From Anaerolineales bacterium (GTDB lineage: Bacteria; Chloroflexota; Anaerolineae; Anaerolineales; RBG-16-64-43): a DNA stretch of 64,000 bases. Made by a program: the position numbers and the translations under genes. This document shows positions 21,220 to 42,881 of the stretch, piece by piece. The stretch's first letter is position 1. Each line of letters starts with the position of its first letter. The notes beneath the pieces were generated by a model that searched no databases, had not been told where the DNA came from, and saw nothing but the letters and a program-made list of their open reading frames with translations. The stretch spans positions 1 to 64,000 of the forward strand of contig JAFGKK010000037.1 in the NCBI GenBank assembly GCA_016928575.1. Reading direction: 5' to 3'.

Positions 21220-21567
21220 ATGCGTCGGTTCCGATTTCATGACGGACGGACTGGATCGGCGATGGCGGTGCATGTGACCCCCCGCTCCCGGAAGAACGAA
21301 TTGACGGGAATCTCCCCGGACGGCACCCTGCGGGTCCGGCTGACCGCGCCCCCGGTGGAGGGTTCGGCCAACAAGGCCCTGCTGGAACTGCTGGCTCACA
21401 TCCTCGGCGTACGCCCCTCCTCACTGGAGATCATCGCCGGGGAAAAGGGGAAGGATAAAATCGTATCGGTTGTCGATCTGGACGCCCACACCGTGGAAGA
21501 ACGTATGAAGAAGTACCTGAAAGGCCGGAAATCGGAAAGCGAGGGAAAGTTATCCGCCCCGCGGTGA
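21220..21567 (+). CDS. DUF167 / YggU family protein
   Basis: A 115-residue protein of the DUF167 family. The signature is HVTPRSRKNELTGI, then LRVRLTAPPVEGSANKALLELLA and EIIAGEKGKDKIV. The function is unknown. The ribosome site AGGAGG is 6 nt from the ATG. The C-terminal 15 residues are an extension beyond the usual domain. Confidence 0.88.
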   Translation: MRRFRFHDGRTGSAMAVHVTPRSRKNELTGISPDGTLRVRLTAPPVEGSANKALLELLAHILGVRPSSLEIIAGEKGKDKIVSVVDLDAHTVEERMKKYLKGRKSESEGKLSAPR

Positions 21568-22058
21568 ACCGGAACGTCCCGGAAATCCGCAGGGCATGCC
21601 ACCCAAGGGCCCCGGCTTGACCTGCCTTTTTTCAAGAAAAGAATCTACAAACTCCTCCCGCTTCGTAATGGAACAGACTCCAAAGACCCTGGCTAAAGGT
21701 ATCCCCTTCCGGAGTCGATGCAGAGGTCACGCGCGTGCGCCCGTCCCTAACTTTTACCCCCGAGTCTGTAGGAATCCAAGCGAGGGAAAGCCCAGGACGA
21801 CGAACTTGAGCCCCTTATTACAAAAACCCTTATTCTTTCGGCGGATCCGGCCGGGAGGAGGCTGCTCTTCGATGGAAGGGCACGCAGAAACCGCCCATTT
21901 TCGATCAGCGCAACTCCACGCAGAGCCTTGAAAAACGGGCGGGAAACTAGGCCGGGGCATTCCGCGTAAGAGGCATCCCCCGGCCGGGAGCTGGAACCAA
22001 GCTTCAGGCTTTGCTCTATACAATGGATCCGCCCCCCCACCTCGAAAACCTCTTTAAA
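21568..22058. other. gene-free interval before the rpsU promoter
   Basis: About 490 bp without a supportable gene or RNA on either strand. Short frames here lack ribosome sites and family motifs. The right edge runs into the consensus promoter at 22059. Confidence 0.5.
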
Positions 22059-22087
22059 TTGACAACCCCAAGGATGGGCTGTATAAT
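22059..22087 (+). promoter_or_regulatory. perfect sigma-70-type promoter upstream of the rpsU leader
   Basis: TTGACA (22059-22064) and TATAAT (22082-22087) with an exact 17-bp spacer. This is the strongest promoter in the window. The predicted start is near 22094, about 240 nt before rpsU. Confidence 0.9.
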
Positions 22088-22093
22088 CCCTCC

Positions 22094-22287
22094 GGTTTTC
22101 AGGTTGATGATCCTTGTCCGGTGGTATACCGGCCCGGCTGAACCTGAAGCCCATACGCAGGGTGCTGTCTGTATAGGCTGCAGGATTAAAGGATTGCTTG
22201 CGGAGGAGATCCTCGACCCCGATCCTCTCTTTCCAAGCCTCATCTTTTGATCCCGAACTCGGCGTGATTTGCTAGCGTCGAGTTTTT
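22094..22287 (+). ncRNA. structured leader or small RNA upstream of rpsU
   Basis: About 195 nt between a consensus promoter and a terminator-like hairpin. Visible elements are: an 8-bp closing stem TTCAGGTT (22098-22105) with AACCTGAA (22141-22148) enclosing a CCGGT-ggtat-ACCGG hairpin (22118-22132); a second hairpin, GCC-c-ATAC (22149-22156) with GTAT-a-GGC (22171-22178), with an inner CAG/CTG pair; GAGGA-ga-TCCTC (22203-22214); and a 9-bp stem AACTCGGCG (22256-22264) with CGTCGAGTT (22276-22284), ending in a short T-run. No open frame with a ribosome site lies inside. It could be an attenuating leader of rpsU-infA or an independent small RNA. No known class is recognised. Confidence 0.65.
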
Positions 22288-22334
22288 GTCTCTCCGGCCG
22301 AGGCAGCCCCTGGCGCGGAAAGGAGGTGAACAAC

Positions 22335-22538
22335 ATGGCAACGGTCGTTCTTCGTCCGAACGAGAGTCAGGACAGTTTGCTTAAACGATTCCGAAAAAAG
22401 GTCACCCGTTCGGGCATCTTGAGCACGGTCCGCAGAAAGCGCTGGTTCGTCTCCAAAAGCGAACTGCGCCGGATCCAAAAGAAAAAATCCATCCGCAGGC
22501 TTAAGCGGCGCGAACGCAAGGTGGACAGCGGGGATTAA
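22335..22538 (+). CDS. rpsU: 30S ribosomal protein bS21
   Basis: A 67-residue basic ribosomal protein. The bS21 pattern is clear: [42 protein letters not shown], then a Lys/Arg-rich C terminus. AAAGGAGGTGAACAAC gives a near-perfect Shine-Dalgarno. This is consistent with bS21 serving in the anti-SD region of the 30S subunit. It is expressed from the promoter at 22059 through a structured leader, and is followed by infA. Confidence 0.93.
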
Positions 22539-22593: not shown

Positions 22594-22863
22594 ATGGCAA
22601 AGCAGGAAGAAAAAATCGAAATGGAAGGCCAGATCGTGGAAGCGCTGCCCGGGACGATGTTTCGAGTTTCGCTGTCCAGCGGCCACTCCGTGCTCGCTTA
22701 TCTCTCCGGGAAGATGAGGAAAAATTATATCCGCATCCTTCTGGGAGACCGCGTTAAAGTGGAGCTCTCGCCCTACGACCTCGACCGCGGCCGGATCACC
22801 TATCGCTTCAAGAAATCCTCCGGAGAAAGCGAACCCACCGGGGAAGCCGCAACCACCACTTAA
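22594..22863 (+). CDS. infA: translation initiation factor IF-1
   Basis: An 89-residue S1/OB-fold protein that binds the ribosomal A site during initiation. Core motifs are [46 protein letters not shown] and GRITYRFK. The last 15 residues are a Ser/Glu/Thr tail beyond the usual ~72-residue protein. Start chosen at the MAKQEEK ATG, seven codons inside the longest frame. Followed by a strong terminator 5 bp after the stop. Confidence 0.93.
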
Positions 22864-22902: not shown

Positions 22903-23311
22903 CCGCGGATTTCTTGTGCTTCCACTTCAGCGCACGGAATTCCACAGGGCTCGCCGAGATTCGAGCCCATCCAGCACTCCGAAAAAATCCCCATATTTTC
23001 TCAGCCCTTCCCTCCTCCGCCGCTCGGTCGCTTTCCCTCGCTTTCCCTCGCTTCGCTCAGGACAGGCGCTCGGGACAAGGTTAAACCCTGTCCCGGTATT
23101 TCACTGGAGCCGGCTTCCCAACCTAAAAACCGAGGAAAAATGGGTGGGATTATTCGGAGCCATCAATCTTCAGGGATTGGTTGGGAGAACGATGGGATGA
23201 GGGGGAGATGAAAACGGGTTTTTCAGCCGGTAATATAATTCCCGCATCGGGATAAGCAGACAAAGAATTCCTTTTCAATATTGAATGCGCGGAGCAGACA
23301 CAACCCCTTTT
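22903..23311. other. gene-free interval holding a dispersed repeat
   Basis: About 400 bp between the infA terminator and the prmA stop codon. No gene is supportable. It contains the repeat at 23021-23203 and an AT-rich 12-bp palindrome TTCAATATTGAA at 23274-23285. Confidence 0.6.
23021..23203 (+). repeat. dispersed intergenic repeat, copy 1
   Basis: Landmarks in order are a tandem CTTTCCCTCG (23031-23050), CAGGCGCTCGGGACAAGG (23063-23080), CCGGCTTCCCA (23110-23120) and GGGATGAGGG (23194-23203). The same landmarks occur in the same order, inverted, at 29457-29715. A third partial copy is at 44442-44496. Confidence 0.65.
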
Positions 23312-42796: not shown

Positions 42797-42881
42797 TGGG
42801 GCGGGTGGGAATTGAACCCACAAGGGGGGCTGCCCCGGGGGATTTTAAGTCCCCTGCGTCTGCCAGTTCCGCCACCGCCCC
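42797..42881 (-). tRNA. tRNA-Leu (UAA anticodon)
   Basis: An 85-nt class II tRNA on the minus strand. The acceptor stem is GGGGCGG/CCGCCCC with discriminator A, the D-arm region is GGCGGAACTGGCAGACGC, and the anticodon stem-loop is GGGGA-CTTAAAA-TCCCC with anticodon TAA. A long variable arm and the T arm GTGGG-TTCAATT-CCCAC follow. The 3' CCA is not encoded (the next bases are CAA). Confidence 0.95.

Follow-up and report, generated by a model that had tools for sequence, protein, structure and literature searches.

The window analysed here is a 64,000-nucleotide stretch of DNA from an uncultured Anaerolineales bacterium that carries, in its first half, the adjacent genes rpsU and infA, encoding ribosomal protein bS21 and translation initiation factor IF1. 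A DUF167 gene ends upstream at 21567, and no recognisable gene lies in 22094-22334. This interval forms the untranslated leader of rpsU-infA, about 241 nt long if transcription begins at 22094, the start assumed from its position 7 nt after the -10 element. The features of the locus are as follows.

22059-22087, plus strand: consensus sigma-70 promoter TTGACA-N17-TATAAT (TTGACA at 22059-22064, TATAAT at 22082-22087).
22094-22287, plus strand: predicted leader RNA, or a discrete RNA if terminated; fold z -4.17; aligns with a genome of the same genus (G001) and one of the same family (G003).
22099-22147, plus strand: hairpin P1, its closing stem (22099-22105/22141-22147) kept around CCGGU...ACCGG, its apex not conserved.
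22148-22179, plus strand: second hairpin of the original prediction, in which mainly three basal GCC/GGC pairs are kept and GAAGCCCA.A.GCAGGG is conserved.
22183-22253, plus strand: rod hairpin of the predicted fold, enclosing a GGAGGAG box; box-side helix with 87% of cells paired, mostly invariant.
22202-22208, plus strand: GGAGGAG, a Shine-Dalgarno (SD)-like box without a start codon, pairing with 22227-22233 in the predicted fold.
22255-22287, plus strand: intrinsic terminator with 5' arm ACUCGGCG and a T tail; predicted stem 22255-22285; order-wide stem covariation.
22319-22329, plus strand: extended SD AAAGGAGGTGA of rpsU, one of only four genomic copies that have a start codon behind them.
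22335-22538, plus strand: rpsU, ribosomal protein bS21 (PF01165, E 1.1e-13).
22594-22863, plus strand: infA, initiation factor IF1 (PF01176, E 8.8e-27), directly 3' of rpsU in all 70 leader loci.

Two further elements of the window deserve mention. The sequence GCGAGGGAAAG or its reverse complement recurs, by eye, at about 21538-21550, 21780-21790, and 23029-23050, which suggests a small dispersed repeat around the leader region. Farther away, a tRNA gene on the minus strand (42797-42881) is the only match in the window at the Rfam gathering level.

The promoter is exceptional. The original prediction called it the sole perfect TTGACA-N17-TATAAT of the window, located upstream of rpsU-infA, and it is unique even when one mismatch is allowed, against a chance expectation of 0.01 such sites in 64 kb. 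Perfect sigma-70 sites with a spacer of 16 to 18 nt number 19 in the whole 3.84-Mb genome. A promoter scan of the interval between the terminator and rpsU found no promoter-like site. Transcripts starting from the site at 22059 must therefore pass the terminator to reach rpsU, which makes attenuation the natural reading of the arrangement.

What does the leader RNA look like? The segment 22094-22290 is predicted to fold with -77.9 kcal/mol (z -4.17), a value equaled by none of 200 shuffles. The untranslated stretch, the stems, the T-run, and the distances described in the original prediction can all be found in the sequence, including the T-run that reaches 22287, 47 nt before the rpsU ATG; the long rod at 22183-22253 had been missed. 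The 22255-22285 stem is absent from the output of a simple terminator scan, probably owing to its predicted loop of 9 nt, as the scan allows 3 to 8 nt.

Within the window's own clade (family f1), the leader can be aligned in three sequences, namely, the window and its relatives in G001 and G003. The counterpart in G004 is positional only and does not align at the DNA level. The family is represented by five genomes, four of which yielded rpsU. The near-invariant blocks of the three-way alignment are CGGUUUUC, GAAGCCCA.A.GCAGGG, GCAGGAU, CUU.CGGAGGAGA, CCUCUC, ACUCGGCG, CCCCUG, and GGAAAGGAGGUGAA, and the clade also keeps the start-less GGAG box, the extended SD of rpsU, and a CUCGGC terminator arm. 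The internal structure that had been proposed survives in part. Of the 21 cells of the closing stem, 20 stay intact, one pair having changed on both sides from A-U to G-C, and the terminator stem is kept in 93.9% of cells. In the relatives, pairing fails in the apical CCGGU hairpin and in the interior of the second one. For the structure as a whole, paired cells amount to 80.4%, compared to 32 to 47% when the structure is slid along the alignment. The compensatory changes anticipated in the three stems are weakly represented in this clade, with 4 two-sided changes in the structure versus 2.7 in shuffles, which is not an excess, from only three sequences that align. The f1 fold is kept largely where the sequence itself is kept, and three sequences cannot prove a fold by covariation.

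A broader view comes from 122 distinct rpsU upstream regions, drawn from relatives, class-level genomes, and 80 named contigs. Seventy of these, in Anaerolineales, have a sigma-70-like promoter, a leader, and a terminator; since having a promoter and a terminator was the condition for inclusion, neither feature counts as independent evidence. Both promoter hexamers are perfect in 39 of the 70. The leaders measure 82 to 204 nt from the -10 element to the T-run (median, 138 nt), and their terminators lie 21 to 113 nt before rpsU. The next gene after rpsU is infA in all 70 leader-bearing loci versus 45 of the 52 leader-less ones, and a same-strand 5S rRNA gene occurs within 900 nt upstream in 30 of 70 versus 1 of 52. 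The order rrn operon, leader, rpsU, infA is found in L006, L008, L013, L024, L043, L085, L093, L107, L129, and others. No such leader was seen by eye at the rpsU genes sampled from other orders of the class (L035, L037, L039-L042, L044, L045, L047, L049, L050, L052, L055, L059, and L060).

Some variants of the locus may be noted here. L106, L110, L111, L113, L114, and L124 have short leaders of 82 to 88 nt with promoter and terminator and no evident GGAG box. Among leader-less members of the order, rpsU seems, by eye, to sit behind a deformylase-like gene in L023, L026, and L028 and behind an S1-domain-like gene in L004, L007, L009, L011, L016, and L021.

Aligning whole leaders across the survey with MAFFT and RNAalifold yielded no consensus structure. 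The terminator is another matter. Order-wide, it has a CUCGGCUG/CAGCCGGG stem that covaries, with two-sided changes in 6 of 8 pairs, 19 such cells versus 3.2 +/- 2.2 in shuffles, and a covariation score of 0.315 versus 0.184 +/- 0.019. A second relationship links the two extremities of the RNA, the 5' end being complementary to the terminator loop. When loops were swapped among 52 representatives, the native mean score was 14.25 versus 11.63 +/- 0.36 for swapped pairs (z 7.3; 0 of 5000 permutations), and a control that set the mid-leader against the terminator loop gave z 0.0. Examples are GCGUUCAC/GUGAACGC (L093), GAACGCGG/CCGCGUUC (L107), GACGUUCAC/GUGAGCGUC (L100), and GUCGCAGAC/GUCUGUGAC (L116). 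Judged from these sequences, the pairing can be either a pseudoknot that coexists with an intact terminator or a competitor of the terminator. Pairing of the 5' end with the 5' arm of the terminator, as expected of an antiterminator, reaches only z 2.9 order-wide. In L024, L053, and the related L043, L046, and L054, the 5' end (UCGGUUGAG / UCGGCUGAGG) complements, by eye, the 5' arm rather than the loop, and this L024/L053 subgroup resembles a classical antiterminator.

As an independent check, 61 genomes were searched with R1, a covariance model restricted to the terminator and trained on 29 loci, none of them from f1. Eight of the loci returned hold rpsU and/or infA, and three of these (in G008, G010, and G028) belong to genomes outside the training set. 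By eye, all three have an AGGAG box upstream, and two have long complementarity between the 5' region and the loop (UUACGAAC/GUUCGUAA; GCGUCCGCG/CGUGUGGACGC). Those other matches that were inspected by eye look like ordinary terminators.

How does the window's leader relate to the others? R1 recognizes the terminator of L002, a member of f1, with 20.3 bits (E of 0.005 in 100 kb) and gives no score to the window's own terminator. The f1 leaders reach no significant match (best E 0.5) to a profile made from the leaders outside f1, the window leader carries a longer 5' domain than other leaders, and the pairing between 5' end and terminator loop was not detected in f1. Since R1 passes over the window's own terminator and the profile over the f1 leaders, homology between this clade's leader and the others depends chiefly on position, the order of the boxes, and the terminator arm. 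We therefore treat it as a form of the arrangement particular to this clade, tied to the rest by position and box order, not by sequence. The strong order-wide covariation resides in the terminator stem and in the 5'-end/loop pairing; the pairing had gone unnoticed originally and seems to be absent from the window's clade.

Another component of the arrangement is the SD-like box. Among 48 cluster representatives, a mid-leader AGGAG occurs in 29 (5.8 +/- 2.0 in dinucleotide shuffles) and GGAG in 40 (18.6 +/- 3.2), and just 2 of 44 leaders have an ATG or GTG 4 to 12 nt past the box. Folding predictions place the GGAG box in paired regions, with a mean unpaired value of 0.23 compared to 0.39 for the whole leader and about 0 in the window; helices around the box common to the order did not rise above swapped controls. 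Two other candidates were tried and set aside. An early 5'-hairpin signal (z 6.3) vanished when self-overlap was forbidden (z 1.1, 1.3, and -0.3), and mimicry of 16S rRNA by the box region (h26/h27, CCGGAGCUAACGCG) dissolved into matches scattered over 16S.

The second SD sequence belongs to rpsU itself. The extended form GGAGGUGA (GGAGGTGA) precedes rpsU in 69 of 70 leader-bearing loci versus 30 of 52 leader-less ones, counts that are uncorrected for relatedness. The anti-SD, UCACCUCCUUUCU, was read in the 16S rRNA of a relative, which ends in ...GGAUCACCUCCUUUCU, the genome's own 16S gene being outside the assembly. Pattern searches for AAAGGAGGTGA with a start codon behind it gave 4 sites in this genome and 0 to 10 in each of 31 genomes. 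Besides rpsU, the four sites precede an rplJ-like gene and two short open reading frames (ORFs), one glycine/arginine-rich and one pilin-like (names assigned by eye). The rplJ-like gene (ribosomal protein L10) with this rare SD lies at C53:3240 (L144) of the same genome (G000).

What might such a leader do? The whole of 22094-22334 can be read as the 5' leader of rpsU-infA and a transcription attenuator for bS21 and IF1, probably under feedback from bS21 or from 30S subunits poor in it, a reading we hold with about as much confidence as doubt and in which the ligand is putative. The attenuator had been one of two options in the original prediction; it gains from its position and from the recurrence of the layout at 70 loci in relatives, at all of which infA comes after rpsU. 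In the proposed scheme, the very strong promoter would start a leader RNA that folds while being made. Much of the transcription would, by default, come to a halt at 22287, where the terminator ends, and leave an RNA of about 194 nt. A shortage of bS21 would let polymerase read through the leader, and the rpsU-infA mRNA would be made and translated from its extended SD. Through their anti-SD, 30S subunits lacking bS21 could bind the GGAG box. We infer that termination is regulated, that bS21 or bS21-lacking 30S subunits are the signal, and that the effect runs in this direction. As to the signal, bS21 or the condition of the small subunit is the likeliest candidate, because rpsU is the first gene, its SD is extended as in Flavobacterium (see below), and the leader holds a second, start-less SD.

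Could the attenuator answer to something else? IF1, another ribosomal protein, ppGpp, a metabolite, or growth-rate control could each serve as the signal in place of bS21, a possibility of perhaps half the weight of the bS21 version. The gene infA is as constant a partner as rpsU, the tests made here do not identify the ligand, and leader-less relatives keep rpsU and infA together (45 of 52) without a leader. Weakly against it, the start-less SD box and the extended SD point to the platform of the 30S subunit, where bS21 sits (PMC9976891). A more specific form of the bS21 reading, which we consider rather unlikely, is that the leader senses 30S subunits directly. The start-less box on the nascent RNA would bind the free anti-SD of a bS21-poor subunit, remodeling the leader and blocking the terminator, so that bS21 and IF1 would be made in proportion to incomplete small subunits.

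Somewhat less probable still is that the RNA, rather than the genes behind it, is the point of the locus. The other option originally offered, a discrete RNA of about 195 nt, could correspond to what termination leaves behind; the further step is that it is abundant and acts in trans, rpsU expression being due to transcripts that leak past the terminator. The promoter resembles that of a stable RNA, the fold is strong, the terminator is complete, and, as mentioned, 30 of the 70 loci lie close behind a 5S rRNA gene. However, the leader occurs once in this genome and the layout is found with rpsU-infA, though the loci were collected by rpsU and copies elsewhere were searched for in part; the other R1 matches inspected by eye have the look of plain terminators. 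Quite unlikely is a clade-specific untranslated region of no regulatory role, with terminator and box there by chance. The low sequence similarity across clades and the lack of covariation above shuffles in three sequences fit this, but the fold (z -4.2), the near invariance of the box, GAAGCCCA.A.GCAGGG, and ACUCGGCG while other parts drift, and the order-wide recurrence of the layout all argue against it.

Two last readings fare poorly. In a leader-peptide attenuator, a short upstream ORF would be translated from the GGAG box, and the position of the ribosome would set termination. The box is a good SD-like sequence, and L008 has, by eye, an ATG AAG AAA CTT... running into the terminator, but a start codon at the right distance is confined to the 2 of 44 leaders counted above, the window having none, and the idea is very improbable. 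Identity with 6S RNA, which the length and promoter strength recall, is refuted, since the true 6S (RF00013, 84.5 bits) lies elsewhere in the genome (G000 C135:34538-34713) and the leader has no RF00013 match; that it is some other catalogued RNA overlooked by Rfam has next to no likelihood. The earlier view that the RNA fits no known class thus holds up: the window leader has no Rfam match even at E 10, and 20 leader loci searched at the gathering score matched rRNA only.

How does the putative rpsU-infA attenuator compare to known systems? It shares with 6S RNA its size and a strong promoter, in a genome with a separate 6S gene. A closer parallel is offered by the attenuator leaders of ribosomal protein operons, such as the rplJL leader of Bacillus subtilis (PMC4538822) and rpsL leaders (PMC2965389), in which an intrinsic terminator immediately upstream of the first gene closes a structured leader. 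The locus described here likewise has an intrinsic terminator between the promoter and the first ribosomal protein gene, and its structure is conserved across species in the order-wide terminator covariation and the 5'-end/loop pairing. It differs from those leaders in its start-less SD box and, in the relatives, in the pairing of 5' end and terminator loop. Surveys of ribosomal protein leaders (PMC7247131, PMC2965389, PMC2864571) hold no S21 or rpsU match in their main texts, and no bS21 leader of this type was found in the main texts of open-licence papers, so that an earlier description elsewhere is possible. The leader is probably an undescribed on/off switch for the bS21 and IF1 genes and, if so, a candidate RNA family absent from Rfam 15.

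The regulation of rpsU in Escherichia coli is unknown according to a 2024 review, in which the Flavobacteria are the known autoregulatory case (PMC10931766). In Flavobacterium, bS21 autoregulation depends on an extended SD of rpsU that is recognized by ribosomes free of bS21 (PMC9976891), and that SD is unusually long and rare in the genome, as is the one found here. The control in Flavobacterium is translational and works without an attenuator, whereas the Anaerolineales locus has a candidate one. Moreover, SD use in Anaerolineales appears to extend to other genes, and the occlusion of the anti-SD by bS21 on the 30S platform, a feature of Flavobacterium, is putative in this order. If the reading is correct, the attenuator would provide a testable link between the completeness of the small subunit and the synthesis of bS21 and IF1, and its conservation in Anaerolineales would represent a second, different solution beside that of the Flavobacteria.
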